Assembly: GCA_903843225.1 (NCBI GenBank)
Contig: CAIMOX010000017.1
Location: 1-35,431 of the forward strand
Length of the DNA: 35,431 nucleotides
Source: an uncultured Actinomycetes bacterium
GTDB lineage: Bacteria > Actinomycetota > Actinomycetes > Nanopelagicales > Nanopelagicaceae
Reading direction: 5' to 3'
Shown here: positions 9,664 to 24,636 of the stretch, one piece after another
Position numbering within the stretch: the first letter of the stretch is position 1
How the letters are laid out: each line of letters starts with the position of its first letter
Program-made: the position numbers and the translations under genes
Notes under the pieces: generated by a model
Seen by the model: only the letters and a program-made list of their open reading frames with translations
The model's database searches: none
What the model was told of the DNA's origin: nothing

Positions 9664-10398
9664 ATGACTTATCAACTCAGAGATTTAAAAGACCAAGTAA
9701 TCGTCATCACCGGCGCTACCGCCGGAATGGGCGCCGCCACCGCTAAAGAGCTTGTCGAGCAGGGCGCAAAGGTCGTCCTCAATGCTCGCAATGAGGCCCG
9801 CCTCAAAGAGATCGTCGCATCATTAGGTGAAGCAAACGCTACCTATGTTGCTGGCGACTGCTCCGAACCAGATGTTTCTCGTGCCATTGCGAAGGCTGCA
9901 ATCGATAAGTTCGGAACCATCGATGCCGTTGTCCCTAACGCTGGTATCGGAATGTATGGATCAATCTTGGATTACAGCGATGATGAAGTGAATCGTATGA
10001 TGCGTACCAACTACGAAGGTACAGTCCACATTATTCGCGCCTGCTTACCAACCATGATTGCCAAGAAGGCTGGCGATATCGTGATCGTCTCATCTGTTGC
10101 CGGATTCCGTGGTGGTGGCGATGAATCGATCTATGCAGGTACAAAGCATGCACAAGTTGGTCTTGCCGGAGGACTCGATCGTGAACTTCGCGAGAAAGGT
10201 GTTCGTGTTGCACTTGTCTGCCCAGCAGGAACCGAGACTGAGTTTGCGATTGGCGCAGGACGCACAGAAGGCACACCAATCCTTGCCAGCTACCTCCGCT
10301 CTGAAGATATCGCCTTCCAGATCACAACCATTTTGAAGCAACCTCGCTCAGTCCGTACTCATATCTGGACTTTGTGGTCTATTAACCAACAGTCATAG
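9664..10398 (+). CDS. Short-chain dehydrogenase/reductase (classical SDR)
   Basis: A 244-residue classical SDR: cofactor motif TGATAGMG (17-24), PNAG (91-94) in place of the usual NNAG, catalytic serine in IVSSVAG (S143 or S144) and YAGTK (Y157, K161). The residues after the second strand (ARNEARL) favour NADP(H) over NAD(H). Substrate unknown; neighbours give no clue. The ATG has no Shine-Dalgarno. GATACT ends 6 nt upstream, matching the leaderless pattern seen elsewhere in the window. Confidence 0.9.
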   Translation: MTYQLRDLKDQVIVITGATAGMGAATAKELVEQGAKVVLNARNEARLKEIVASLGEANATYVAGDCSEPDVSRAIAKAAIDKFGTIDAVVPNAGIGMYGSILDYSDDEVNRMMRTNYEGTVHIIRACLPTMIAKKAGDIVIVSSVAGFRGGGDESIYAGTKHAQVGLAGGLDRELREKGVRVALVCPAGTETEFAIGAGRTEGTPILASYLRSEDIAFQITTILKQPRSVRTHIWTLWSINQQS

Positions 10399-10415
10399 TC
10401 GGGTTAAATCACCCG

Positions 10416-11387
10416 TTATAGCCAGCCTGACTGCTTGAACTTTCGAAATAGGAAGGCAGTCAGGCTCACCATTACTCCTAGCACTACGTAATATCCGTAT
10501 CTAGTGCTCAACTCAGGCATGTGGTGAAAGTTCATTCCATAAATACCAGCGAGCATTGTTGGACCTGATGCGAGAGCGACCCAGGCTGAAATTCGGCGGA
10601 CATCGATATTTTGCTGAACCTGAATATGCGCCAGATCAGCCTGCAATACCGACGTGATGAGTGAATCTAATCCGGATGATTGTTCAATCGCTTGGATTAA
10701 ATGATCTGATGTATCTCGGAAGAACGGCTTGATCCCTTCCGGAACAGTTGCGACAAAGCCACTAGATATCTTATTGATAGGAACTAGAAGTGGCTCGATG
10801 GAATGCTTGAACTCGATGATCTCCCGCTTAAGGAAGTAGATCTCTTGAGAAAAAGTTTGACGCTTTCCATTAAAGACCTTGTTCTCTACAGAGACAACCT
10901 CTTGTTCGAGTGAGGCACCAATACTCGTGTAGCCATCGATTACACGGTCTGCAACAGCATGAAGTACCGCAAATGGTCCAAGGGCAAGAATTTCAGTTTG
11001 TTGCTCAAGGTCATGCCGAACGGTGTCTAAGGCAGAGCCCTCACCGTGTCTCACAATCACAATGAAGTGATCTGCAATAAAGCACAGTAGTTCTCCGGTT
11101 GAGATCTCTTGCTCTCTTTGATCGAAAAAGACGGTCTTCATCACAAAAAACGTTAACCCGTCATAGTCTTCAATCTTTGCTCGCTGCTTTGCATTGATAG
11201 CATCTTCAACTGCAAGGGGATGGAAGTTGAGTTCACCGACAATCATGTCAAACTCATGCTGAGTAGGTTCGGCTAATCCGAGCCAGACAAATCCACCATC
11301 TCGACGTGCAATATCGACGAGATCAGAGATTTCAGCGGAGCCATCCACCCGATGGCCATTTTGGTAGAGAGCGACATCAACAATCAT
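10416..11387 (-). CDS. CorA-family Mg2+/Co2+ transporter
   Basis: Membrane channel for divalent cations, 323 residues. A long cytoplasmic N-terminal domain leads to two C-terminal helices. The pore signature GMN (in GIYGMNFHHMPE) lies at the end of the first helix, about residue 284, and the protein ends with the basic tail RKFKQSGWL. The acidic loop after GMN is HHMPE, close to the family MPE. The selected ion (Mg, Co or Zn) cannot be told from sequence. TAGAGT ends 6 nt before the ATG, so the mRNA is probably leaderless. Convergent with the SDR gene. Confidence 0.94.
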   Translation of the reverse strand: MIVDVALYQNGHRVDGSAEISDLVDIARRDGGFVWLGLAEPTQHEFDMIVGELNFHPLAVEDAINAKQRAKIEDYDGLTFFVMKTVFFDQREQEISTGELLCFIADHFIVIVRHGEGSALDTVRHDLEQQTEILALGPFAVLHAVADRVIDGYTSIGASLEQEVVSVENKVFNGKRQTFSQEIYFLKREIIEFKHSIEPLLVPINKISSGFVATVPEGIKPFFRDTSDHLIQAIEQSSGLDSLITSVLQADLAHIQVQQNIDVRRISAWVALASGPTMLAGIYGMNFHHMPELSTRYGYYVVLGVMVSLTAFLFRKFKQSGWL

Positions 11388-11393
11388 GTCGAG

Positions 11394-11399
11394 ACTCTA
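11394..11399 (-). promoter_or_regulatory. Predicted -10 box of corA-like gene
   Basis: TAGAGT on the minus strand, followed by 6 nt and the ATG at 11387, with no Shine-Dalgarno. Leaderless configuration. Confidence 0.5.
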
Positions 11400-11400
11400 G

Positions 11401-11424
11401 CGCGGGAAGGTAAATTATCCCGCG
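11401..11424 (-). other. Perfect 7-bp inverted repeat between zinc-ribbon gene and corA-like gene
   Basis: CGCGGGA and TCCCGCG flank a 10-nt loop. The repeat overlaps the stop codon of the zinc-ribbon gene and ends next to the corA-like -10 box. It could end the upstream transcript (though it has no T-run) or bind a regulator. Confidence 0.4.
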
Positions 11425-11585
11425 AGAAGTGTGATCGTGGTCGAAGAAAGATGTTCGTTAGCTGCCGTCAATGAGAAACCACATTCCACACATAGAACCT
11501 TTAAACCACTCTCTTTTGTGTAGAAAAGCTCGAGTTCAGTGGAATGACAGAAGCTGCATTCTGGGATATCAATAACCTGTTGCAT
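11415..11585 (-). CDS. Zinc-ribbon miniprotein, 56 aa
   Basis: A small protein with two CxxC knuckles (CSFC and CVEC) about 20 residues apart, the pattern of a zinc ribbon, followed by a Ser/Thr-rich tail ending TLLAG. The frame extends 14 codons further upstream, but the ATG at 11583-11585 has an excellent Shine-Dalgarno (GGGAGG, 11591-11596) 5 nt away, so the 56-residue form is preferred. Function unknown; such ribbons bind nucleic acid or other proteins. The upstream region carries several palindromes. Confidence 0.72.
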   Translation of the reverse strand: MQQVIDIPECSFCHSTELELFYTKESGLKVLCVECGFSLTAANEHLSSTTITLLAG

Positions 11586-11608
11586 GGTTGCCTCCCTTCG
11601 TGAACAGG

Positions 11609-11627
11609 CGTATAGATACGTGATCAC
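11609..11627. promoter_or_regulatory. Adjacent palindromes upstream of zinc-ribbon gene
   Basis: CGTAT-AG-ATACG (11609-11620) and the overlapping GTGATCAC (11620-11627) are perfect palindromes about 25-40 nt before the start codon, at the likely promoter or leader. Candidate operator; the protein that binds it is unknown. Confidence 0.35.
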
Positions 11628-11680
11628 CAGGGAAGTAATAAAATAGTTACACAGGGAGGTGAGAATTCTTCTATTCCATG

Positions 11681-11707
11681 GTTAACGTTTCGTTAACATT
11701 TATTAAC
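11681..11707 (-). repeat. Three GTTAA repeats at helical spacing
   Basis: On the minus strand GTTAAT, GTTAAC and GTTAAC occur 10-11 bp apart, so all three face the same side of the helix. This resembles the direct-repeat layout of actinobacterial PhoP boxes (GTTCACC every 11 bp) but differs in sequence. It lies between the tRNA and the zinc-ribbon gene. Confidence 0.4.
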
Positions 11708-11713
11708 TTGTTG

Positions 11714-11786
11714 TGCCCCGGGTCGGACTCGAACCGACACTGAAAGGATTTTAAGTCCTCTACCTCTACCATTGGGTTACCAGGGC
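11714..11786 (-). tRNA. tRNA with anticodon UAA (Leu by anticodon), short variable loop
   Basis: Full cloverleaf of 73 nt, CCA not encoded. Acceptor GCCCTGG pairs with CCGGGGC; the D-loop contains GG; the anticodon stem GAGGA pairs with TCCTT around loop CTTAAAA (U33, anticodon UAA); the T-arm is GTCGG-TTCGAGT-CCGAC; the discriminator is A73. The anticodon reads UUA, a leucine codon that is used in genes here (for example in kduI). Leucine tRNAs normally have a long variable arm, but here it is only five bases (TCAGT). tRNA identity is certain as a structure; charging with leucine is expected from the anticodon and A73, not proven. Confidence 0.9.
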
Positions 11787-11817
11787 GTTTTTACATTGAT
11801 ACTCCGAAGGCCCTAGG

Positions 11818-12945
11818 TTACACGCCCAGAGCGGGGCCAGTTCCAGACTGAACAGCCCTGAGAATATTTCTATCCGGTGAGATTGCCGCAGCGATTGCAT
11901 TAAGCGCCAACCCCTGCCCCCATAGCTGCATTCTGTCGTTACGAATAACGCTGTACCCAAATGGAATCAGTTGCAGAACAGTTCCAGCGCTCGTTCGCGT
12001 GAGCGTTCCTGCTGCATCTACATATGTAAGGGAAGCTGCGATAGCCTTCATGCCAGTTGCTTGTAAGGCAGGTGCAATCTCAGGAAGATATTTCTGAGCT
12101 CGAATCATCGCCGCTCCGATTCCGGCAGTTGCTGATGTCTCTAAGATCCCAGCATTTTCTACTTGGTGATCCACGAGAACATCCCAAATCCCATACTCAG
12201 GAAGCAATGGAATGTGCGCTTGCAGATGGTCTTTGAGCGTCTCAAGAATCTTTGCTCGCTCATCTGGTGAAATCTCTAGCGCATCACATGCTTCCAAATA
12301 TTCGACCATCGATAACGCCATCCAGGCATTACCTCGACCCCAATAGTTCCAAAAGACTTCACCGCGATGTGATCCGTGGGCAAATAAGGAAGTATCTGGA
12401 TTGCGAAGAATCTCAATATGAGCGACTAATTGTTCACCGATAAAGCGAACAAAATCAGGGCGACTATTTGCAACGCCATGATTGAGCAGAAAAGTCCCCA
12501 TCATGTAACACGTATCCGCCCACACTCCGCCAGGCCAATGCTCCACTGCACCATTTGCCGATCTTGTTGCAGATTGTGGATCAACGACCCAGGTTTCAAG
12601 TGTGGAGATGACTTCACTAGCATCTAAATAACCAAGGGCATGGAGTCTGGCAGCGGCGGCTCCAGGTGCAACGTTGTTAATGTGCCCGGACGTAATAAGT
12701 TCTCTACTTGAATACCAATCAATGAGCTGTTGCGGTGGTTTCTCCCCTAACAACTCGTGGTAGCGCACTTGCGCTAAGAGATAAACGCCCTCTCCCCACG
12801 ACCATTGAGGAAGCCCAGCACGCCAGGTCGCATCAATAATTCGATCAGCACGCTCGCGTAAAAAATCAGGTGTTAGCTGCTCAGGAGTTAATGGCTCTAA
12901 TGGCTTCGGCTCGTACCAACTCGAGGTGTTATCTTCTCCCGCCAT
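11818..12945 (-). CDS. GH88/GH105-like unsaturated glucuronyl hydrolase
   Basis: Predicted cytoplasmic glycosidase that removes the 4,5-unsaturated uronic acid left at the non-reducing end of oligosaccharides by polysaccharide lyases. 375 residues, an (alpha/alpha)6-barrel of normal length. Landmarks are WSWGEGVYLLAQ (48-59), GVWADTCYM with D144 at the place of the catalytic Asp143 of B. subtilis YteR, and WGRGNAWMAL. The position expected for a second Asp reads HINNVAPG, with Asn, as far as I can align by eye. No signal peptide. Last gene of the ABC arm, 3 nt after the 904-residue gene, and divergent from kduI/kduD, which process the product. GH88 versus GH105 cannot be settled by eye. Confidence 0.85.
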   Translation of the reverse strand: MAGEDNTSSWYEPKPLEPLTPEQLTPDFLRERADRIIDATWRAGLPQWSWGEGVYLLAQVRYHELLGEKPPQQLIDWYSSRELITSGHINNVAPGAAAARLHALGYLDASEVISTLETWVVDPQSATRSANGAVEHWPGGVWADTCYMMGTFLLNHGVANSRPDFVRFIGEQLVAHIEILRNPDTSLFAHGSHRGEVFWNYWGRGNAWMALSMVEYLEACDALEISPDERAKILETLKDHLQAHIPLLPEYGIWDVLVDHQVENAGILETSATAGIGAAMIRAQKYLPEIAPALQATGMKAIAASLTYVDAAGTLTRTSAGTVLQLIPFGYSVIRNDRMQLWGQGLALNAIAAAISPDRNILRAVQSGTGPALGV

Positions 12946-12948
12946 CGA

Positions 12949-15663
12949 TCAAGCCTGTGAATCTGGGGAGATTCGCTTGCCCTCAATTAAATCGATGACT
13001 AACTTCTCGCCCCCAAACGCTGCACTCAAAATCGAATCAGTCGCACTAACAACTGTTGCAGGATTGGCCAAACGAGGTGGAACTTCGGGCAATCCATTAC
13101 TGAGAGTCACGCTCTTACCATCAACGAAGAATGGACCATCCCAGGTGAGAGAGAATTCACTCTTCTGTTTGAAGGTGATGCTCTGACTCTTATCGTCAAA
13201 GATAGGCTCACCAAGTTTCTTTACAAAGCTATTGAAATCCTTGTACTCCTTTTTATCGCCAAGGATTGCAACATAGAGCGCACCACGGCCTTGAGGAATC
13301 CACTCCTGCATAGCTGTATCGCCCTTAATTAATGGGCGGAATCCGCCTGCAGTCGCTACAGCGACGTAACCATCTCCCACTTGACCTGCTATCCAAGAGC
13401 CCTTCTGCACGAATTTATCCATCCATGGAGTTGGGAACCATAGATGCGTGAAATTTGGGAGCAACTCATCCTTCAATGGATACATCGCAAGAACAACATT
13501 CTTATGCTGACGAACCCTTGGAAGTACGAGGTGGCCCGCCCATGCATTTGGTCTAACCGAAGTTGCGTGGCCAAATGATGCTGGGTAACTCGCAAAGACT
13601 TGCACTTCAGTCGATAGCGTTGCACCCCAGACATGCTCCTGCAAACCTGGAAGTCCAGCTCGATAATCTTGTACAGAAGAGAGCATTCCACTCTCAGTTC
13701 GCCATATATGCAGATCTGATGCATAAGGACGTTCAAGGAGATCGCTTGTAAATCGATATTTACCTCTATAAACCTGACGACTTTGCCACTTACTTTGGAG
13801 AGAATGAGCAACCTTCACAACAAGTGGAGGCAAGGTATATTTCTTTGCAGTGATAAGGGTGGTAACAGGTAGCACTGCAAGATTGAGTGCACCCATTCCC
13901 CACAGCGCCCACATGATTGGCGCGGTCTCTTCAAATCGCGATGAGCGAAGAGTCGTGGTGTAACTGCGGCCATGCGCAGCTCCATGAATTCCTCGCCATG
14001 AATTACTTGCCAAAGAGAACATGAGCTTATCCAGAAGCGCCTCAGAGAATTCGCGGATTGTTTTATCTGGTGAGTACTCAAAGAGGGAGACAAGTGCCAG
14101 AGTATCGATAGCTAAATATGCATTTGAATCATATTCGCTAAATCCACCCTCTAACTTTCGCTTCAACCATTCAAGTGCCATGGCGCGCCCGCGTTCGGCG
14201 TGATCAGATCCCGAGCGATCTGCATTAGTGAATCGCTCTGTCTTGAAGTAACTTCCAATCAAATGTTCAGCGGTATGCCATACAAATTGGTGATTCTCGG
14301 TGAAGTAACACATAGCATCTAGGCCAGGATCTTCGATCCAATACTTAAATGAGAGAAGTGTCTGCTTTACCTCTTCCTTGAGCCCCGCTTCCCATTGATG
14401 ATCTGGGAATCTATGCAAGATATGAACGAGTCCAACTGCTTCAAAATCGGCACAGTCTGCGCGCGATGTAATCATGGAAAGCGCAGGGGCTAAATCCTCA
14501 CGAGTCACGGTATAGGTGCTGTCCTGATCAAGACGTGCCAATGCGCGAGCTGATGAGGCATAACTCTGCGCAACATGGTCAATAACCTCTTTGCGCCATA
14601 CCTCTGGCTTACTCCGTGGAACCGTTGTCCGTACTCGCTCTGGGACTCTTGCGGTGCGGAATGTACGAAATACCGGTGAGCGCTCATCATCCACGCGAAC
14701 TTCAAGGAAGACTTCTCCAGTATCTAACATTGTTGCGGTTACATCCCCCTCGATTGAATCAGAGGAACCTTTCATGGCAGCCTTTGCTGCTTCGCGAATC
14801 TTTGTGATCGTGGTGCTTGCTTTACTTTTTTCAAGAGTAAGCGCAACTCCATTGCCAATTGAGTTTCTCTCCTTGACCCGAATTTTTAGCCCTTGTGATC
14901 CGGCAAAGGTAATCTTGTCGTTATCTCTAGCCCATCGCTCAAGCGCGATGCTCTCTAATTCGCGTTCGGCGCTCTCAGAGATGTATTCATCTGCACCAAG
15001 AGTAGGAATGACTACTCGGACTGGTAGTCCTTCAACTTTCACGCGAACCGCGTGACGCACTTCGCGAAGTGAGATCTGCCATTGAGAGATGATCAGCGTA
15101 GAAACACCTGAAGGGAGCAACGTCTCGATCTCATGTGAGAGTGGCTGCATATAACCAAAAGTCTCGGTCGAAAGCACCAACTCTCCATTGAGCCAGACCT
15201 GAACTGGCCCTTGGCTTTGCACAATAAGTTTGCGCCACTCTGGTTGGTCTACTTCGATCTGTGCTGCCATCAAAGAGTGACGATATTCAGGTGTGTAGGA
15301 GAAATGGCTCCAGTCAGCATATCCATCATGTCCTGTATGGATTCGTACCCAACTATCCTTCACAACTTCGCCTGTACCAGGAGTTCGCCATTCAACTGGG
15401 CCACCCTCAATTACCTTTGGCATCAATTGATCTTTGATAAATGGGCGTTGCTGATAGATCCGGCCCTTCAGTGGGGCAATATCTGGGCCGTTGGTGAGTA
15501 CCCATCGCCCATTTTCACCGAATGGATCTCCCGATGCTTCTAGCAACTTTCCGAGGTCATTCGCAGGTGAAATCCACGCGCGGGTAATCAACCAATCTCG
15601 GATGAATCCGTGTGAATCAAGTAGGTGGATTGTGCGATCAAAGTTGTCGGTAAAGGCAGTCAT
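12949..15663 (-). CDS. Large cytoplasmic protein, candidate (alpha/alpha)-toroid glycan-active enzyme
   Basis: 904 residues and no signal peptide. I do not recognise the family. The first ~350 residues look beta-rich (IRDWLITRAW near the start, then TGHDGYADWSHFSY and VQVWLNGELV), like a jelly-roll that binds sugar. Residues ~355-670 are helical with repeated aromatic/His motifs: ENHQFVWHTAEHLIG (456-470), SEYDSNAYLAID (509-520) and RGIHGAAHGRSY (557-568). The remainder is beta-rich again. This order recalls heparinase- or alginate-lyase-type toroid enzymes, whose catalytic residues are Asn, His, Tyr and Arg. Its place between the sugar permeases and the unsaturated glucuronyl hydrolase suggests it cuts the imported glycan. 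GAGGA 8 nt before the ATG supports the start. Confidence 0.8.
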   Translation of the reverse strand: MTAFTDNFDRTIHLLDSHGFIRDWLITRAWISPANDLGKLLEASGDPFGENGRWVLTNGPDIAPLKGRIYQQRPFIKDQLMPKVIEGGPVEWRTPGTGEVVKDSWVRIHTGHDGYADWSHFSYTPEYRHSLMAAQIEVDQPEWRKLIVQSQGPVQVWLNGELVLSTETFGYMQPLSHEIETLLPSGVSTLIISQWQISLREVRHAVRVKVEGLPVRVVIPTLGADEYISESAERELESIALERWARDNDKITFAGSQGLKIRVKERNSIGNGVALTLEKSKASTTITKIREAAKAAMKGSSDSIEGDVTATMLDTGEVFLEVRVDDERSPVFRTFRTARVPERVRTTVPRSKPEVWRKEVIDHVAQSYASSARALARLDQDSTYTVTREDLAPALSMITSRADCADFEAVGLVHILHRFPDHQWEAGLKEEVKQTLLSFKYWIEDPGLDAMCYFTENHQFVWHTAEHLIGSYFKTERFTNADRSGSDHAERGRAMALEWLKRKLEGGFSEYDSNAYLAIDTLALVSLFEYSPDKTIREFSEALLDKLMFSLASNSWRGIHGAAHGRSYTTTLRSSRFEETAPIMWALWGMGALNLAVLPVTTLITAKKYTLPPLVVKVAHSLQSKWQSRQVYRGKYRFTSDLLERPYASDLHIWRTESGMLSSVQDYRAGLPGLQEHVWGATLSTEVQVFASYPASFGHATSVRPNAWAGHLVLPRVRQHKNVVLAMYPLKDELLPNFTHLWFPTPWMDKFVQKGSWIAGQVGDGYVAVATAGGFRPLIKGDTAMQEWIPQGRGALYVAILGDKKEYKDFNSFVKKLGEPIFDDKSQSITFKQKSEFSLTWDGPFFVDGKSVTLSNGLPEVPPRLANPATVVSATDSILSAAFGGEKLVIDLIEGKRISPDSQA

Positions 15664-15689
15664 CTTTTAATCCTCATTCTTAATTGTGA

Positions 15690-16568
15690 TTACTTCATAC
15701 CTGTTTGGGAGATACCTTGGACAATCTGTCTCTGCATAAATACAAACATAAAGAGAACTGGGATGATCGACATAACAGACATCGCGATAATGATGTTGGT
15801 AGGAACTGCAAGACGACCATTTAACTGAGCTAAAGCTACTGGGAGAGTATAAAACTTCTCATCTTGGGCTACTAAGAGCGGCCAAATGAAATCGTTCCAG
15901 CGCCACAGAATCGAGAAGATTGCGACAACAGCAAGCGCTGGGCGAGCTAAGGGAAGAACTATTCGAGCATAAATCCTAAACTCCCCCGCACCATCAATGC
16001 GAGCAGATTCAATCAACTCATCGGGAATCGTTAGCATGTACTGCCTGATGACGAAAACCCCAGTGGGGGTTGCTGCCGCGGGAATGATCAATCCCCAATA
16101 GGTATTTACCATGCCAAGTTGGGCGACCACCAAGTAAATAGGAATCAAGATCACTTGAAGTGGGATCATAATCATCGCGAGGGTAAGGACAAATAAACCG
16201 TCGCGGCCTCGGAAGTTATATTTAGCAAAGGCATAAGCTGCCATTGAATTGATAACTAGAGTGAGGATTGTTGCAACGGTTGTAACAAAGACGCTATTGA
16301 AAAAATAACGCTTGTAGTTATAACTCTTGAGCGCTTCTGAGTAATTATCGAGTGAGAAAGATTGCGGTAAGAAGTGAGGTCTTCCACCGAGTTCAGCCAA
16401 GCCCTTGAAAGAAGAGAGCGTGAACCAAATGACTGGTGCTAAAACCACAAAGGTCATACCGATTAAGAGAGCAGTACGAAGGATTTCTGCTGTCTCTGGC
16501 GTACGTCGACCTGAGGTAGATGTCCAATTATTTTTTGCATTTGCATCAAAGATTCGAAGTAGTTTCAT
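15690..16568 (-). CDS. Carbohydrate ABC transporter permease, MalG/UgpE type
   Basis: Inner-membrane subunit of a CUT1-family sugar importer, 292 residues with six predicted helices. The EAA loop that contacts the ATPase is clear: ESARIDGAGEFRIYARIVLPLARPALA. The protein ends GISQTGMK, close to the usual QGLTAGAVK. The ATG overlaps the stop of the first permease gene as ATGA. Works with the permease and binding protein upstream. No ATPase gene is in the locus, so a shared MsmK/MsiK-type ATPase elsewhere is presumed. Confidence 0.95.
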   Translation of the reverse strand: MKLLRIFDANAKNNWTSTSGRRTPETAEILRTALLIGMTFVVLAPVIWFTLSSFKGLAELGGRPHFLPQSFSLDNYSEALKSYNYKRYFFNSVFVTTVATILTLVINSMAAYAFAKYNFRGRDGLFVLTLAMIMIPLQVILIPIYLVVAQLGMVNTYWGLIIPAAATPTGVFVIRQYMLTIPDELIESARIDGAGEFRIYARIVLPLARPALAVVAIFSILWRWNDFIWPLLVAQDEKFYTLPVALAQLNGRLAVPTNIIIAMSVMSIIPVLFMFVFMQRQIVQGISQTGMK

Positions 16569-17470
16569 ACTGCGTTGCGCCTTCTTCCTACGATGAAATT
16601 CAACGCCGTGAAGGCAAAAATGACTAAGAAGAGGATAACTCCGGCGGCACTACCCAATCCATAACGAATTGGTACTCCGAAGGCTCGTTCGTAAATGTAT
16701 TGAACGATCAAGGTTGTTGCTCCAAGCGGGCCGCCACCTGTCAGTGTGTAGATAAAGTCAAAGGATTGGAAACCATGAATCGTGGCCAGGATGATGATGA
16801 CCAAGGTGGTTGGCTTGAGCAGTGGCAAAATAATTTGCCTAATTGTTTGCATGCGCGAAGCGCCATCGATTGAAGCCGCCTCAAGAACGCTTCGATCGAT
16901 TCCTTGAAGTCCAGCAAGCAAAATGATGGAGTAGAAACCAACGTGGACCCAGAGTCCAACGAATACCACTGTGACCATGCCGAGATTGGTATCCACCAAC
17001 CAGCCCGGGGCGCCACCACCAAGCATTTTTATAGCCGCGTTGAGAGGCCCGTGTTTGCGATCAACGATATCGCTCCAGATTAGCCCAACAACGACTGGTG
17101 AGAGCATGACTGGCATAAAGAGAATTGCCCTAAAGAAACCCTTAGCAAACTTCTGCTCATTGACCACCAAAGCGAGAGCTATTGAGATCGTAATCGCAAG
17201 CAGTACGTAGAAGAAGACATAGGTAATTGTGTTCCGAGCGACCTGAGAGATCGTTGGATCATGGAGAATCTCTTTAAAGTTGGCATTGCCTACATATTTA
17301 AAATGAACTCCGTCGGTACTGTCAAAGAATGAAATCCAGAAACCGCGGATCGCTGGCCAAATAATAAAGGTTAAAAAAATTGCAAAATTGGGTGCAACAA
17401 ATAGATATGGAACAAGCCGTCGGGACCAGCTTACGCTGGATCCACGACGGCTTGCCTTCTTAATTAACAC
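16565..17470 (-). CDS. Carbohydrate ABC transporter permease, MalF/UgpA type
   Basis: Partner permease of the CUT1 importer, 301 residues. The N-terminus ends its basic stretch before the first helix (YLFVAPNFAIFLTFIIWP). The EAA loop is LEAASIDGASRMQTIRQIILPLLKP. A GTG start at 17468-17470 fits the usual family N-terminus; the Shine-Dalgarno is weak. It follows the binding-protein gene by 31 nt and overlaps the next permease by 4 nt. Confidence 0.95.
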   Translation of the reverse strand: MLIKKASRRGSSVSWSRRLVPYLFVAPNFAIFLTFIIWPAIRGFWISFFDSTDGVHFKYVGNANFKEILHDPTISQVARNTITYVFFYVLLAITISIALALVVNEQKFAKGFFRAILFMPVMLSPVVVGLIWSDIVDRKHGPLNAAIKMLGGGAPGWLVDTNLGMVTVVFVGLWVHVGFYSIILLAGLQGIDRSVLEAASIDGASRMQTIRQIILPLLKPTTLVIIILATIHGFQSFDFIYTLTGGGPLGATTLIVQYIYERAFGVPIRYGLGSAAGVILFLVIFAFTALNFIVGRRRNAV

Positions 17471-17501
17471 AGAAACTCTCGAAAGATATCTCTTCTCTCG
17501 A

Positions 17502-18821
17502 TTACTTCTTCAACGTCGCGAGCTGCGTATCAATGTAAGTGATCTGCTGCGCGATAGCTTGATCTGCCGTGATCTTCTTTGTCATGACGAGTGTCATCAA
17601 ATCACGGATATTGTTGTAGATGTTGCCAGCCAAAGTTGGTACTGACTGGATTCCATAGGCAGCCGCAGGAGTTGCTGCAGCATCTGCTAGGTAAGTGTTC
17701 ATATCTGTTTGGCGTGAAGAGTATGTAATTCCCTTAGCAACAAGGTCATTACGAGTAGGAAGCCAGAATGCGGCCTTGTCCATACGCTCCATTTGAGCTG
17801 GTTGTGCCAACCAGTTTGTGAAGTATGCAGCTAAGTCAGCGTTCTTGCTCGCCTTAAAGGCCATCAAGAACTTTCCTCCTGGCCATCCTCCGCCATTGAG
17901 TTCCTTTGGATTTGGAACAACTGCAAAGTTGAACTTTGCGCTGGCGTTAATGGTTGCAAGGTTGAAGTTACCTGAGAAGAAGACAGGGACTGCACCTGCG
18001 ATAAAGACGTTTACAGGTGAGGAATATTTTGTTCCAGTACCAACCCACAAATCACGTGGTGCGAGATCAGCAGCATAGAGATCTGTGATCAGCTTGAGTG
18101 CCTTCGCTGCACGGTGTTGTGATGTTGGAAGAACGTTCTTCTGGTTCTTATCGACCATGAATGCGCCGAATTGGCTCATAACAGTTGAGAAACGGTGACC
18201 GGACTTATCCATTGCAAATGCATAGTCAGTACCGCCTGCAGCCTGTGCCTTCTTAGCATCGGCAATTAAAGTCGCCCAGTTCCAAGAAGTAGGGATTGCA
18301 ATTCCGGCCTTCTTAAATAGATCAACGTTGATGATTGGACCGTTGACTGAAAGATCATATGGAAGACCAATAAGGTGAGAAGTCTTTGGATCCTGCACCT
18401 GAAGAGTTGAACCCTTGAGGAACTCAGACTTATATGTACGACCAAAGTATGTCTCGAGATCGAGAGCAACATTCTGGTAGAGACCAGGGTTGTTGAGGCG
18501 GGCTACATCTGGAGTGTTTCCAGCGGCGATGCGTGCCTGGAGTTGCTGATCAAGAGTTGTGTAAGGGACATCATCTAGTTTGACAGTTGCACCAGTGAGA
18601 TTTTGGAAGTCTGTGATCATCGCGTTGGTTGTGTCAAGTTCGGCTTGACTATCGTGGTAGAAGTAGTAAGTAATTGTCTTACCCTTCCACGCAGCTAACT
18701 GAGCAGCAGTTGGTTTTAGAGTTGAAGTATCTGCGTGCGCGCTTGGAAGTCCAGTCACGACAAGGCTGGCGACAAGTGCGAGTGCGCTCGAGATCGCAAT
18801 CTTCTTTCGAATATTTTTCAT
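17502..18821 (-). CDS. Extracellular sugar-binding protein of the ABC importer
   Basis: Family-1 extracellular solute-binding protein, 439 residues, that captures the glycan fragment outside the cell. A Sec signal (1 to ~31) ends in LPSAHA, then the mature protein begins DTSTLKP. There is no lipobox cysteine, which is odd for a Gram-positive binding protein. Landmarks of the family include ITYYFYHDSQAELDTTNAMITDF at the first strand, AARIAAGNTPDVARLNN-like text (ARIAAGNTPDVARLNNPG) and GGWPGGKFLMAFKASKNADLAAYF. First gene of the minus-strand arm, with its own promoter upstream. The ligand is inferred from context to be a uronate oligosaccharide. Confidence 0.95.
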   Translation of the reverse strand: MKNIRKKIAISSALALVASLVVTGLPSAHADTSTLKPTAAQLAAWKGKTITYYFYHDSQAELDTTNAMITDFQNLTGATVKLDDVPYTTLDQQLQARIAAGNTPDVARLNNPGLYQNVALDLETYFGRTYKSEFLKGSTLQVQDPKTSHLIGLPYDLSVNGPIINVDLFKKAGIAIPTSWNWATLIADAKKAQAAGGTDYAFAMDKSGHRFSTVMSQFGAFMVDKNQKNVLPTSQHRAAKALKLITDLYAADLAPRDLWVGTGTKYSSPVNVFIAGAVPVFFSGNFNLATINASAKFNFAVVPNPKELNGGGWPGGKFLMAFKASKNADLAAYFTNWLAQPAQMERMDKAAFWLPTRNDLVAKGITYSSRQTDMNTYLADAAATPAAAYGIQSVPTLAGNIYNNIRDLMTLVMTKKITADQAIAQQITYIDTQLATLKK

Positions 18822-18858
18822 GGTGATTCTCGTGAACCCTTCTATCGGTGAGGTACCA

Positions 18859-18874
18859 AGCGATCTATTTCGCT
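18859..18874. promoter_or_regulatory. Inverted repeat in the leader of the binding-protein gene
   Basis: AGCGA-TCTATT-TCGCT is a perfect 5-bp inverted repeat just downstream of the predicted -10 box of the ABC arm, a typical repressor position. A second, long-range pair, TAATCCT (18889-18895) and AGGATTA (18943-18949), flanks the promoter region. Operator role is inferred. Confidence 0.3.
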
Positions 18875-18884
18875 AGTTGGGGCA

Positions 18885-18914
18885 TATTTAATCCTGATTC
18901 CTAATGTAAAACAA
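18885..18914 (-). promoter_or_regulatory. Predicted promoter of the ABC/glycan-hydrolase arm
   Basis: On the minus strand, TTGTTT (-35, 18909-18914) and TAAATA (-10, 18885-18890) are 18 bp apart. This gives a leader of about 55-60 nt before the binding-protein gene. Confidence 0.45.
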
Positions 18915-18962
18915 GGGTATAAGGCCCACTGACTAGCCCTTTAGGATTACCCAGATATCCCT

Positions 18963-18968
18963 TAGACT
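18963..18968 (+). promoter_or_regulatory. Predicted -10 box of kduI
   Basis: TAGACT is followed by 7 nt and the ATG at 18976. No Shine-Dalgarno. Leaderless configuration for the kduI-kduD-eda-kdgK arm. Confidence 0.5.
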
Positions 18969-18975
18969 GCTGGCT

Positions 18976-19791
18976 ATGGAGATCAGAACACCCATTACGC
19001 CAGATGATGTGCAGAGTAAGAGCGCGGATTACCTACGAGAGAAGCTGGTAATCAGCAATCTCTTTGTAACAAATTCTGTCACATATCTCTTATCGCACCA
19101 CGATCGCATACTCATCGGTGGGGTGACCCTTAAGAATTATAAAGTTTTGTTACAAAGCCCAGAAGAGTTACGGGCTGCCTATCTTCTCGAACGTCGTGAG
19201 TTGGGTCTTGTCTGTCTCTCAGGCTCTGTTGAGGTTCTCGCTGATGGCTCCACGCATCGACTAGAAGCAGAAGATATTCTCTATATCGGTCGCGGTACTC
19301 GCGAGGTAACCATTGAAGGAACTGGCGATATCTACTTCACCTCGAGTATGTGTCACATTGACTTCCCAACGACTCTGATCAAAAAAGAAGATTCAAACGC
19401 AACGGTCCTTGGAGTGAAGAAAAACTCCAATGAACGAACTCTTCGAAAATATATCCACGACCAAGGTGTCGCCTCAAGTGCGATGGCTATGGGAATCACA
19501 ACAATTCACGAAGGCAGCAGTTGGAACACCATGCCATGTCACACGCATGAGCGTAGAACTGAGGTCTACCTTTACTTTGATATTGATGAGAATGAGAAAG
19601 TCGTTCACCTCTTTGGTCGACCAGATTCAACTCGCAATCTCATATTGAGTAATAAAGAAGTTGTAATCAGCCCAGCCTGGTCAATTCATACAGGTTCTGG
19701 AACCGCAAATTATAAATTTGTCTGGTCCACTGCTGGAGAGAATATTCTCTACTCAGATCTCGATGCAGTAGCTACCAAAGATTTACGATAA
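18976..19791 (+). CDS. kduI: 5-keto-4-deoxyuronate isomerase
   Basis: Converts 5-keto-4-deoxyuronate, the form taken by a released unsaturated uronate, to 2,5-diketo-3-deoxygluconate. The 271-residue cupin has the zinc ligands of the family: H189 and H191 in CHTHERRTE, E196 in the same motif, and H238 in SPAWSIHTGSG. ITTIHEGSSWNTMP is also characteristic. First gene of the plus-strand arm; kduD follows after 4 nt. Cytoplasmic. Confidence 0.96.
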   Translation: MEIRTPITPDDVQSKSADYLREKLVISNLFVTNSVTYLLSHHDRILIGGVTLKNYKVLLQSPEELRAAYLLERRELGLVCLSGSVEVLADGSTHRLEAEDILYIGRGTREVTIEGTGDIYFTSSMCHIDFPTTLIKKEDSNATVLGVKKNSNERTLRKYIHDQGVASSAMAMGITTIHEGSSWNTMPCHTHERRTEVYLYFDIDENEKVVHLFGRPDSTRNLILSNKEVVISPAWSIHTGSGTANYKFVWSTAGENILYSDLDAVATKDLR

Positions 19792-19795
19792 ATAG

Positions 19796-20563
19796 ATGTC
19801 GAATTGGATTGAAGATCAATTTTCGCTCAGTGGTAAACGAGCCCTCGTCACTGGTGCAAGTAAAGGCATTGGCGCAGCAATCGCAGTTGCGATGGCGAAC
19901 GCTGGTGCTGATCTGATCCTTGTGGGTCGAACCTCCGAATCACTCGCGCAGACAAAGGGTGAAATAGAGAAACTTGGCAGAAAAGCTACAGAGATGATCT
20001 GCGATCTCTCAGAGACAGATGAAATTGCCCGAGTATTTTCTGACGTTGATTCTCTTGAGGTCGACATCCTTGTTAATAATGCAGGAACCATAATTCGCGG
20101 ATCATCACTTGAACTCCCGCTCTCAGAGTGGCGCCGCATCTTAGATACTAATCTCAACTCTGCATTTCAATTGACTCAGCTATGCGCAAGATCGATGGTT
20201 GAACGAGGATATGGACGAGTCATTAATATCGCTTCCCTTCTCTCTTTCCAAGGAGGGCTCAACGTCTCGGCATACACAGCAAGTAAGCACGGCATCGCCG
20301 GCCTGACAAAGGCTCTTGGAAATGAACTTGGTGCTCGAGGTGTAACTGTTAATGCAATCGCTCCTGGCTATATCGAGACTGATAACACTCAAGCGCTACG
20401 CGATGATCCCGAGCGAAACAAGGCGATTAGCGCCAGAATTCCAGTAGGCCGATGGGGCAAGCCAGAAGATATTAGCTCTGCTGCAGTCTTCTTGGCATCT
20501 AAAGCAGCGGGGTATATCAACAGCGAGATTCTGACCGTCGATGGTGGCTGGATGGCCCGATGA
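19796..20563 (+). CDS. kduD: 2-deoxy-D-gluconate 3-dehydrogenase / diketo-deoxygluconate reductase (SDR)
   Basis: Classical SDR of 255 residues that reduces 2,5-diketo-3-deoxygluconate to 2-keto-3-deoxygluconate with NAD(P)H. TGASKGIG (19-26), NNAG (94-97), S147 and YTASK (Y160, K164) are intact, and the C-terminus GYINSEILTVDGGWMAR is typical of KduD. The specific assignment rests on similarity plus its place directly after kduI. Overlaps the aldolase gene by 4 nt (ATGA). Confidence 0.93.
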   Translation: MSNWIEDQFSLSGKRALVTGASKGIGAAIAVAMANAGADLILVGRTSESLAQTKGEIEKLGRKATEMICDLSETDEIARVFSDVDSLEVDILVNNAGTIIRGSSLELPLSEWRRILDTNLNSAFQLTQLCARSMVERGYGRVINIASLLSFQGGLNVSAYTASKHGIAGLTKALGNELGARGVTVNAIAPGYIETDNTQALRDDPERNKAISARIPVGRWGKPEDISSAAVFLASKAAGYINSEILTVDGGWMAR

Positions 20564-21177
20564 TTGAGATTATCTCTGCAAAGCGAGTTGTTCCTGTGAT
20601 TACAATCAATGACTCTGCGAAAGCAAAAGAGCTAGCAGATTGCCTTGTCGAAGCTGGGCTTCCTATCGCTGAAATAACGCTCAGAACTCCCGAAGGAATA
20701 AAGGCGATCGAACTCGCGGCTACCAACTCCTCTCTTCTTGTTGGAGCAGGATCTCTTCGTAACGCAGATGATGCAAAAGGTGCAATAGCTGCAGGGGCAC
20801 GCTTCTTGGTATCCGCTGGTTTCTCCCAAGGCATTGCTAATGAAGCGATAAAGAATAATGTTCAATATTTTCCAGGAGTAGCTACGCCGACAGAGATCAT
20901 GCAGGCACTTGAAGCAGGAATCACCACTGTGAAATTCTTTCCAGCTGAGACTCTCGGTGGCTTAGCCGCCCTTAAAGCAATCTCTGCACCATTTCCGGGA
21001 GTTGCATTCATGCCAACTGGCGGTATCACTCTTGCCAACGCCGCCAAGTATTTAGAGTTCTCTCCTGTGCTTGCCGTAGGCGGAACATGGATGGTTGCGA
21101 AAGAGCTGATTGATAATGGAGACTTTTCAACAATTTCTAGATTAGCGAGTGAGGCAGTAGAGGTGTGCGAACGATGA
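20560..21177 (+). CDS. eda: KDPG/KHG aldolase
   Basis: Class I aldolase splitting 2-keto-3-deoxy-6-phosphogluconate to pyruvate and glyceraldehyde-3-phosphate. 205 residues, normal length. Catalytic Glu in AEITLRT (E38) and the Schiff-base Lys in VKFFPAE (K125) are present, as are the phosphate-binding motifs FMPTGGI and VGGTWM. Translationally coupled to kduD upstream and to the kinase downstream (ATGA overlaps on both sides). Confidence 0.95.
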   Translation: MIEIISAKRVVPVITINDSAKAKELADCLVEAGLPIAEITLRTPEGIKAIELAATNSSLLVGAGSLRNADDAKGAIAAGARFLVSAGFSQGIANEAIKNNVQYFPGVATPTEIMQALEAGITTVKFFPAETLGGLAALKAISAPFPGVAFMPTGGITLANAAKYLEFSPVLAVGGTWMVAKELIDNGDFSTISRLASEAVEVCER

Positions 21178-22265
21178 ATATTCTGAGTAAAGAAAAATGT
21201 CGCTTCGATGAGATCTCTCTCGGTGAGGTCATGCTTCGCCTCGATCCAGGTGAAGGACGGATAAAGAGCGCCAGAAGTTTCAATGCATGGGAAGGCGGCG
21301 GTGAGTACAACGTCGCTCGCGGACTCCGACGTTGTTTTAATTTGCGCACATCCGTCGTAACCGCCCTTGCTGATAACGAAGTAGGACGATTGATCGAAGA
21401 TTTCATTCTGCAAGGTGGCGTTGATACAAGCTACATCCAGTGGAGTAAATACGATGGAATCGGTAGAAGCGTGAGAAATGGTCTCAACTTCACAGAACGA
21501 GGATTTGGCCTGCGAGGTGCAATCGGCGTATCAGATCGCGGAAATACTGCTGCTTCTCAACTGCGTTCAGAATCAATTGATTGGGATGCAATTTTTTCAC
21601 AAGGAGTCAGATGGCTCCATACTGGCGGGATCTTTGCGGGATTATCTTCAACGACACCCGATGTGATTGAAGCAGCGATGATGAGTGCAAAGAAACATGG
21701 GACAAAGATCTCTTACGATCTCAACTATCGTCCAAGTCTCTGGAGCGCGATCGGCGGCCAGGAAAAGGCTCAAGCAGTCAACAAGGCTCTCGCTCCTTAT
21801 GTAGATGTAATGATCGGAAACGAAGAAGACTTCACACAATCACTTGGATTCCACGTCGCTGGCCAATCTTCAGATTTTAAAGAAATTGATCATTCGGCAT
21901 TTGGTGACATGGTTGCTGAGGTAGTGAAGAGCTATCCAAATCTTGAAGTGATAGGCACAACGCTGCGGAAAGTAAATTCAGCATCAAATAACGATTGGAG
22001 CGCAATCGTCTGGTCGAAAGAGAGCGGTCTTCTGCTTTCAAAGCAGTACAACAATCTAGAAGTTCTCGACCGCGTTGGAAGTGGAGATAGTTTCGCATCG
22101 GGATTGATCTTTGGCCTTCTTGATGGACGTCCGCTTCAAGAAGCGCTCGAACTTGGCGTTGCTCACGGAGCGCTCGCCATGACGACCCCTGGTGATACAT
22201 CTATGGCTTCTCTCTCCGATGTTGAGAAGCTTGCACGTGGTGGCGGAGCTCGAGTAGAGCGCTAG
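21174..22265 (+). CDS. kdgK: 2-keto-3-deoxygluconate kinase (PfkB family)
   Basis: Phosphorylates 2-keto-3-deoxygluconate to KDPG, the substrate of the aldolase upstream. 363 residues from ATG 21174, which overlaps the eda stop as ATGA; a GTG at 21165 is the alternative. PfkB-type features: GGEYNVARGL near the N-terminus, DLNYRPSLW, and the C-terminal signature DRVGSGDSFASG with catalytic D305. Last gene of the plus-strand arm; no clear terminator follows. Confidence 0.93.
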   Translation: MNILSKEKCRFDEISLGEVMLRLDPGEGRIKSARSFNAWEGGGEYNVARGLRRCFNLRTSVVTALADNEVGRLIEDFILQGGVDTSYIQWSKYDGIGRSVRNGLNFTERGFGLRGAIGVSDRGNTAASQLRSESIDWDAIFSQGVRWLHTGGIFAGLSSTTPDVIEAAMMSAKKHGTKISYDLNYRPSLWSAIGGQEKAQAVNKALAPYVDVMIGNEEDFTQSLGFHVAGQSSDFKEIDHSAFGDMVAEVVKSYPNLEVIGTTLRKVNSASNNDWSAIVWSKESGLLLSKQYNNLEVLDRVGSGDSFASGLIFGLLDGRPLQEALELGVAHGALAMTTPGDTSMASLSDVEKLARGGGARVER

Positions 22266-22998: not shown

Positions 22999-24636
22999 TT
23001 ACGGAAGCGTTGGCACTATCCCAAGAACATAGGTTTGATAAGCGGCGTACCAATTCGTTGCGATAGCAACCTGTGCTTTCTTTAACGAGATCTGATGCGA
23101 GCAAACTAGTAGGTGGAGCTTGTTCTCTAACTGATCCTTCTTTCTCGCACCAGTCGATCCAGCATAAGGCTCTGGCCATAAGTTCTTAGGACTAGTCGGA
23201 CTACCACCTAGCTCTAACGAGATGAGATGGTCTTCTTCGAAGAGCGATGTCTTGGTGCTGCCAAATGCAGAGTATGGAAGTGAATTGAGCTGTTGAATCT
23301 TCAGTTTTGTCGTGTAAGAAGACGGTGGCCTAATTTTCTTGGTGTAACCAATCGTACAGATTGTTGACCCGATATTTTCTTGCGTTACCGCCGGATTGAT
23401 CGCCCCAGGAGTCACTTTCGAATTTGGTAAAACTGGCCCAACTGCTTTAGCTTGCACAGCCACTACGGTTGGCGTGGGTGCAGGTGTTGCGACCTCGCTC
23501 TGAACAAACTTGAGGCTAACTGTCGGAGATGAGAGGTGAATCCCCTCAACGTTTACAACGTACTGATCGTTCACCAACTGACCGGTGTAAGTCTGTGTTT
23601 GAGACTGGCCATCAGAATCGTACAGAAGGGATATTTGAGCCTTGGACTGCTTTGTTAAGTCCACTCCCCACAAACATTGGGCCAGAGCCGTTGAAATCTT
23701 TGCCTGAAAATTCACATAATTAATCGATCCATCAGACTTCAAATGCGGTCCGGACAAAGCGACGTTAAGGGAACCGTTCTTGGAATCCCACTCGGGGAAG
23801 TTGTCCCAGAAGGCATTCGATACAACACTCACGCCCGATTTAATGGATCTACACGTACCAAAGTTCTGCATCCGAGAATCACTAAGACCCCAGATCCAAT
23901 AAGTGATTTGATCGTTTTCGAAATCTCCCCGCGTTGCCAATACAGCGCCGTTACAGCCGTATCCGGAATATTCTGATGGTTCGAGCTCCATATTGAGTAC
24001 GGTGTAATCAGAGTTAGGCGACTCAAACGTCACACCAGCGCTAGAAAGACCTCTTCCCAATCCTCCGGATCCAAGGGTCTGCATAACATTGTTTGGTACG
24101 CGAACTCTGACATCAAATTTCACTCCAGGACCAAATTCTGTTGGGACTGGACTGCCTGGGTAGTAGGTCTTTCCAACACAACTTTCGCTAGTAGGCGGGA
24201 AAACTTTCGGTTGTGGTCCACCTGGGGTTCGACTGCCAGGGGTTAGAACCGTTTCAAGATATTCGTTCCCTTGCACACAAGGCGTGTAGAAACAGTCCTG
24301 ATTACCCATTGGAAAATAGAAAATTCTTGGCATGGCAGTCTTCACATAACCATTATCGAAAGTAATTCCATCAAAAACATACTCCTGCCACTTTGCAGTA
24401 AGAATTGATTGAGGAGCATATGCTCGAGTTTCGGTTGAGATTTTGCCGTTTAGTTGACCTTTCACTTTGGCTCCATCTGATTTCGACGCATAAATAGCCT
24501 CAATGCAAAAAGTTGAATTGTCAGTTGAACAATCTAAGACCGCTTGTAATGGCTCAACCGCCCGTGCTACCGAAGGAAATGGATTAAGGATCGTAAGAGC
24601 GATCAATGACAGAACTGAAGCTAGAAACCGACGCAT
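22999..24636 (-). CDS. Secreted protein with HNH-like C-terminal domain
   Basis: 545 residues. A signal peptide (1 to ~27, cleavage near ARA) is followed by a large beta-rich region rich in Cys, Gly and Ser that I do not recognise, and a Pro/Thr/Ala-rich linker (~370-400). The C-terminal ~120 residues resemble a widespread small exported domain: GSTICTIGYTKKIRPPSSY, then EEDHLISLELGG (467-478) and KNLWPEPYAG (484-493). The DH...N arrangement recalls an HNH/beta-beta-alpha-metal nuclease, but nuclease activity is inference. AATAAT ends 6 nt before the ATG, which suggests a leaderless mRNA. Confidence 0.82.
   Translation of the reverse strand: MRRFLASVLSLIALTILNPFPSVARAVEPLQAVLDCSTDNSTFCIEAIYASKSDGAKVKGQLNGKISTETRAYAPQSILTAKWQEYVFDGITFDNGYVKTAMPRIFYFPMGNQDCFYTPCVQGNEYLETVLTPGSRTPGGPQPKVFPPTSESCVGKTYYPGSPVPTEFGPGVKFDVRVRVPNNVMQTLGSGGLGRGLSSAGVTFESPNSDYTVLNMELEPSEYSGYGCNGAVLATRGDFENDQITYWIWGLSDSRMQNFGTCRSIKSGVSVVSNAFWDNFPEWDSKNGSLNVALSGPHLKSDGSINYVNFQAKISTALAQCLWGVDLTKQSKAQISLLYDSDGQSQTQTYTGQLVNDQYVVNVEGIHLSSPTVSLKFVQSEVATPAPTPTVVAVQAKAVGPVLPNSKVTPGAINPAVTQENIGSTICTIGYTKKIRPPSSYTTKLKIQQLNSLPYSAFGSTKTSLFEEDHLISLELGGSPTSPKNLWPEPYAGSTGARKKDQLENKLHLLVCSHQISLKKAQVAIATNWYAAYQTYVLGIVPTLP

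Follow-up and report, generated by a model that had tools for sequence, protein, structure and literature searches.

Many GH88/105-KduI-KduD gene clusters, in rhizobia and roseobacters as well as in actinobacteria of soil and small actinobacteria of fresh water, encode a hypothetical protein where a lyase is needed. One such cluster lies in a stretch of 35,431 nucleotides (the window) from an uncultured Actinomycetes bacterium of the Nanopelagicaceae. The question of what its 904-aa protein does was addressed using sequence relatives, a predicted structure and gene neighbourhoods.

The gene and its uronate cluster

The open reading frame was confirmed to be real. It spans positions 12949 to 15663 on the minus strand (read from 15663 down to 12949), and the plus-strand frame over the same interval contains many stops. 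A chance ORF is excluded, since a genome scan identified 73 loci with genes for relatives; about 45 of these proteins are close to full length, with identities of 43-78% in freshwater and soil actinobacteria. No signal peptide was evident by eye at the N-terminus.

The gene is the fourth in a tight run of five, which encode a binding protein, two permeases, the candidate lyase and a GH88/105-family enzyme. It starts 26 nt past the second permease gene and ends 3 nt ahead of the GH88/105-family gene, and this order confirms the location between sugar permeases and an unsaturated glucuronyl hydrolase given in an earlier note on this DNA. A divergent run of four genes follows beyond the binding-protein gene. 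The genes of both runs are:

17502-18821, minus strand: ABC solute-binding protein (PF01547; relatives in the PDB)
16565-17470, minus strand: ABC sugar permease A (PF00528)
15690-16568, minus strand: ABC sugar permease B (PF00528)
12949-15663, minus strand: candidate uronate-oligosaccharide lyase (ORF, relatives and model)
11818-12945, minus strand: GH88/105-family unsaturated uronyl hydrolase, the partner enzyme (PF07470, E 4e-31; GH105 entry 3qwt best)
18976-19791, plus strand: KduI, 5-keto-4-deoxyuronate isomerase (PF04962; 320 bits with the NCBIfam equivalog model, the cut-off of which is 250)
19796-20563, plus strand: KduD-like SDR (best NCBIfam model kduD, 322 bits, slightly under the cut-off of 339)
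20560-21177, plus strand: KDPG aldolase (PF01081; TIGR01182 above cut-off)
21165-22265, plus strand: pfkB-family kinase, probably KDG kinase (PF00294; best NCBIfam matches are KDG kinases, below cut-off)

Among proteins of solved structure, GH105 entries were found to be nearest to the partner glycosidase. In the alignment to 3qwt its W-x-D-T motif is kept, and together with the PF07470 match this assigns the enzyme to GH105. The Asp of the motif is presumably the catalytic one, as in YteR. No gene for a transporter ATPase was found in the cluster; the ATPase is assumed to be encoded elsewhere and shared. The neighbouring genes belong to the pathway of unsaturated uronyl hydrolase, KduI and KduD (PMC12838403), whereas the candidate lyase family is absent from the papers that the literature searches retrieved.

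Sequence relatives and distribution

No match to the 904-aa protein was obtained in Pfam, NCBIfam or the PDB sequences with a single sequence or with a profile, in agreement with its earlier description as a protein of unrecognised family. Four distant relatives scanned against Pfam matched no family, and a search of phage genomes identified no relatives. One weak Pfam match, to a haem-binding domain, has an E of 0.17; it falls below the cut-off and was taken as chance.

The Anaerolineae relatives share about 29% identity with the protein. Plasmids contributed 199 further records, mostly from Rhizobium and roseobacters at about 27%, with Haladaptatus at 31%, and where these plasmid relatives are annotated they are hypothetical proteins. 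The Haladaptatus plasmid relative (L111, 9797-13730) and a distant Actinomycetota relative (L108, 4-3459) were found to be without the N-terminal domain. The N-terminus of the L108 protein resembles by eye a lipoprotein/Tat-like signal, which suggests that secreted versions may exist. One locus (L004), in a record titled as a Bifidobacterium breve MAG, carries a freshwater-type cluster at 75% identity; its organism name is probably wrong.

Among 150 genomes of the window's close kin, the gene was present in three, including the genome of the window itself, and it was absent from all the other genomes listed for that genus. The cluster is therefore an accessory trait. Its G+C content (window 10001-22000) is 0.46-0.49, compared to 0.49-0.52 in the flanks, and given this slightly lower value and the rarity among relatives the cluster is possibly an acquired island.

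Predicted structure

The AlphaFold2 model of the whole protein has a mean pLDDT of 90.5 and a pTM of 0.90. It comprises a jelly-roll (residues about 8-225), a mixed linker to about residue 340, helices at residues 353-619 and a beta-sheet domain at residues 626-900. The domains correspond to the following positions:

14989-15642, minus strand: N-terminal jelly-roll, residues about 8-225, GH2 sugar-binding/PA14-like (DSSP of the model; VIA matches)
13804-14616, minus strand: alpha/alpha toroid domain, residues about 350-620 (models and fold matches)
12964-13788, minus strand: C-terminal beta-sheet domain, residues about 626-900 (models and fold matches)

The VIA matches to the jelly-roll cover residues 7-220 with Z of about 9-10. 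When the whole chain was searched with Foldseek, the matches were GH2/GH78-type enzymes, found through this domain. They would fit a glycoside hydrolase that trims an imported oligosaccharide with the jelly-roll as its GH2-like sugar-binding domain and without beta-elimination. These matches mainly cover the jelly-roll (residues about 7-220), no hydrolase appears among the best 50 VIA matches of the catalytic half, and the invariant residues (Asn, His, Tyr, Arg and Glu, see below) are lyase-like, so that a hydrolase of this type is considered very unlikely. The whole-chain Foldseek result was regarded as misleading because the jelly-roll dominates it, and the catalytic half was modelled alone instead.

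The model of residues 345-904 reached a pLDDT of 90.6 and a pTM of 0.92. Its best Foldseek match was the PL35 enzyme GAGase VII (8khw; E 9e-5, prob 1.00), and PL8, PL12, PL33 and PL15 enzymes were also among the top matches. A match to a toroid plus beta-sandwich lyase, which had been proposed as a check of the fold, was thus obtained for this half. Already in the whole-chain VIA alignment, residues 350-850 were matched to PL35, PL17, a chondroitinase and human dermatan sulfate epimerase. For the half model, the best 50 VIA matches are all toroid/beta-sheet lyases or human dermatan sulfate epimerase, with Z of 7.4-9.5, 330-448 aligned residues and an rmsd of 5.4-8.0 Å. Besides a chondroitinase, they include families PL8, 12, 15, 17, 21, 23, 35, 39 and 40. 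The VIA list is a re-ranking of Foldseek candidates, and further PL families may come equally close in structure. With Z-scores of middling height (below 10 for the half model, under 11 throughout) and an rmsd of 5-8 Å, the fold is shared at a large distance. In the models, membership of the toroid plus antiparallel beta-sheet lyase superfamily is very well supported, and no single PL family is favoured by structure. A viral fold library gave weak matches of no use.

Human dermatan sulfate epimerase 1 (6hzn) ranked high among the structural matches (Z 9.1-9.3), and abstraction of the C5 proton is common to lyase and epimerase chemistry. The protein could accordingly be read as a uronyl C5-epimerase, or another non-lyase on the toroid/beta-sheet scaffold, that acts ahead of a separate lyase. 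The cluster would then be without a maker of unsaturated ends for GH105 and KduI, the conserved gene set shows no other lyase, and the bacterial relatives are repeatedly paired with GH88. This reading is judged very unlikely.

Conserved residues and the proposed active site

Conservation was analyzed in a set of 59 sequences and in 23 more divergent ones, which go down to about 20% identity. Invariant in the 59 sequences are D403, D406, K440, W442, the stretch C452-Y-F-T-E-N-H-Q459, E510, S513, N514 and Y516, as well as H564, R566, Y568, Q675, E676, R704, W708 and W757. Across the 23 divergent sequences, E456, N457, H458, E510, S513, Y516, G565, R566 and Y568 are still invariant, Q675 and H740 are nearly so, and N514 and H564 are not. 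All invariant positions of this second set but one fall within residues 403-591. The main motifs are:

14287-14298, minus strand: E456-N457-H458-Q459, located where a toroid helix starts, with N457-H458 as the pair proposed to neutralise the carboxylate (invariant)
14116-14136, minus strand: E510-x-x-S513-N514-x-Y516, with Y516 as proposed catalytic acid/base (E510, S513 and Y516 invariant)
13960-13974, minus strand: H564-G-R566-x-Y568, proposed substrate-binding motif (G565, R566 and Y568 invariant)
13633-13641, minus strand: Q675-E676-H677 of the beta-sheet domain, with H677 as possible base (H677 in 57 of 59)
13444-13446, minus strand: H740, a nearly invariant His of the beta-sheet domain (58 of 59; above 90% in the divergent set)

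The residue clusters proposed earlier carry correct numbers for the 904-aa protein and were largely retained. N457, H458, N514, Y516, H564, R566 and Y568 are invariant in the 59 sequences, and H463 (57/59) and H560 (55/59) are nearly always present. H467 was found in only 7 of 59, and Y511 is replaced by F or W in 53 of 59; both were therefore dropped from the proposed site. The His/Tyr/Asn clusters are not lost among the homologs, and their key residues (Asn, His, Tyr and Arg) are invariant.

The catalytic residues of toroid lyases are an Asn, a Tyr and a His of the beta domain, namely N192/Y246/H401 in GAGase II, N201/Y258/H413 in PL17, N186/Y239/H405 in PL39 and N183/H233/Y242 in PL8 (PMC12088678). 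In PL17 the residue next to the Asn is a His, and the two share the neutralising role (PMC12336832). Not every family of the superfamily has a catalytic His on its beta-sheet domain. In the model, N457-H458 start the helix 456-472, and Y516 is located in the first turn of the helix 514-530, two helices later. N457 and Y516 thus stand at the N-termini of toroid helices, as the catalytic Asn and Tyr do in this superfamily; the fit is one of position and conservation rather than of superposed coordinates.

The spacings were likewise taken from published residue numbers and the secondary structure of the model, without superposed coordinates. The distance between Asn and Tyr is 59 residues, compared to 53-59 in PL35, PL17, PL39, PL12 and PL8 (PMC12088678). 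From the Tyr to the toroid end there are 103 residues (published range 85-125), and from there to the beta-domain His (H677) 58 residues (published range 38-51; PMC12088678). Based on spacing, helix position and conservation, N457, Y516 and the other residues named are proposed to occupy the catalytic positions. H677 is replaced by Thr in one alphaproteobacterial branch (Roseobacter/Shinella), in which the Tyr may therefore act as base as well as acid.

Comparison with known lyases

The best Foldseek matches, the PL35 enzymes GAGase II and VII (8khv/8khw), share the toroid plus beta-sheet fold with the 904-aa protein, and also the toroid Asn and Tyr and possibly the beta-domain His, which are similarly spaced. 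The protein differs from them by the additional N-terminal jelly-roll and by an Asn-Tyr distance of 59 instead of 54. Neither phmmer nor a profile search detected a match to PDB sequences at E <= 10, and nothing in the protein evidently corresponds to the PL35 Mn ligands H403/D405.

The PL17 oligoalginate lyases (Alg17c 4nei/4ojz, 7bjt) have in common with the protein the fold (Z 9.2-9.8), the adjacent Asn-His, proposed here as the neutraliser pair that it is in PL17, and the action on oligosaccharides that is proposed for the protein. No sequence match to them was found, and they yield monomers and need no GH105, whereas GH105, KduI and KduD follow here. PL8 (chondroitin AC, hyaluronate and xanthan lyases) shares the fold (Z 7.4-8.6) and the Asn-Tyr spacing of 59. 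This spacing may be a coincidence, since PL8 has a His nine residues before the Tyr, where Gly507 is found here; in addition, Pfam Lyase_8 was not matched and the hhalign probability was 0.3-1%.

The fold is also that of the PL12/PL15/PL21 heparinase-type lyases, which are PF07940 proteins. One PF07940 protein (L085) has motifs, N-H and E-R-S-P-A-Y, that resemble N-H and E-x-x-S-x-x-Y here, but neither the 904-aa protein nor the four distant relatives matched PF07940 (Hepar_II_III; PL12/15/17/21 type), with an hhalign probability of 0.2-2.5%. Across the PF07940 and PL8 sets, hhalign gave no usable residue mapping (0.2-2.5%). The protein appears to represent a known kind of lyase but an unclassified family.

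Gene neighbourhoods of the relatives

Of 52 actinobacterial loci, 44 have a GH88/105 gene no more than 1.7 kb downstream of the relative, and the relative is preceded by the second permease in 40 of 51 and by the binding protein in 38 of 48. KduI was found within 9 kb in 34 of 53 loci and a KduD-like SDR in 29 of 53.

All eight annotated alphaproteobacterial plasmids carry GH88 beside the relative or in the same cluster, five of them with KduI and four with KduD. The relative occurs together with GH88, kduI, kduD and a TRAP transporter in Pseudosulfitobacter and Salipiger, with GH88, kduI, kduD and an ABC transporter in Shinella and Gemmobacter, and with GH88, kduI and an ABC transporter in Pannonibacter. 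In Rhizobium etli, Rhizobium Pop5 and R. anhuiense, which are three close relatives, it lies in a cluster with GH88, GH28 and an ABC transporter. The ABC and TRAP transporters of these plasmid clusters are unrelated. As the enzymes are kept together while the transporter varies, the enzymes form a functional unit. TRAP uptake would point to a small acidic substrate, and GH28 hints at pectin-type material in the rhizobial clusters.

GH88 alone does not predict the candidate lyase, since the GH88 genes of four close relatives without it (L150-L153) are found in other surroundings, one of them beside a GntR regulator; no relative of the candidate lyase was identified in these surroundings.

For the Anaerolineae relatives, GH105 and KduI neighbours were not found nearby. 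Two of these loci (L064, 10863-12206; L071, 10691-12091) carry, immediately after the relative, a gene whose product has the C-terminal domain of L-fucose isomerase, followed by transporter genes, and L071 also has a transaldolase-like gene. Gfo/Idh/MocA and sugar-phosphate isomerase genes adjoin the Haladaptatus relative, and a Gfo/Idh/MocA-like oxidoreductase is encoded just upstream of the distant Actinomycetota relative L108. Because the Anaerolineae and archaeal neighbours differ, the family is broader than one pathway, and part of it may do something else than uronate lysis. The oxidoreductase genes at these two relatives would fit an eliminase with 3-keto-glycosides, or some other compound that is not a uronate, as its substrate. 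In the window's own clade, the neighbours GH105, KduI and KduD handle unsaturated uronates, and such a function is highly improbable for the 904-aa protein.

Proposed function and pathway

The 904-aa protein is quite likely a cytoplasmic lyase, which would cut imported uronate oligosaccharides by beta-elimination; this assignment draws on the modelled fold, on the residues that are invariant and on the gene linkage with GH105, KduI and KduD. Of the earlier suggestion of a lyase or hydrolase, the lyase is strengthened by these three points and the hydrolase is now the weaker half. A lyase that makes unsaturated ends for the GH88/105 enzyme, as had been supposed, fits the linkage conserved in many lineages.

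The ABC transporter (17502-18821, 16565-17470 and 15690-16568) would import a uronic-acid oligosaccharide, most likely a short acidic one derived from plants or algae. The lyase would hold it in the groove between the toroid and the beta-sheet domain, where R566 and Y568 may bind the substrate and the GH2 sugar-binding-like jelly-roll may position it. N457-H458 are proposed to neutralise the C5 carboxylate and so to lower the pKa of H5, which Y516, perhaps together with the beta-domain residue H677 acting as base, would abstract before protonating the leaving O4. The beta-elimination would leave a 4,5-unsaturated uronosyl end, to be taken off as 5-keto-4-deoxyuronate by the GH105-type enzyme of the next gene. 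KduI, the KduD-like SDR, the pfkB-type KDG kinase and KDPG aldolase would convert this product to pyruvate and glyceraldehyde 3-phosphate. The proposed route is cytoplasmic uronate-oligosaccharide lyase, GH105, KduI, KduD, KdgK and KDPG aldolase.

The candidate family ranges over Actinomycetota, Chloroflexota, alphaproteobacterial plasmids and haloarchaea and is marked by the proposed active-site motifs N-H, E-x-x-S-x-x-Y and G-R-x-Y. On balance, we favour a large unclassified PL family, intracellular, acting on imported oligosaccharides and carrying a GH2-type jelly-roll, which may supply the lyase step that is missing from many GH88-KduI-KduD clusters. That this family is new is a probability rather than a result, as the absence of matches was established for Pfam, NCBIfam and the PDB sequences. 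The assignment, if true, would complete a uronate-oligosaccharide pathway in environmental bacteria, enlarge the toroid lyases by a further enzyme family and provide a marker for the use of uronic-acid glycans in fresh water and the rhizosphere.

Elsewhere in the window (22999-24636, minus strand), a secreted-looking protein of 545 aa without a Pfam match is encoded, the C-terminus of which has by eye the look of an HNH-type nuclease domain.
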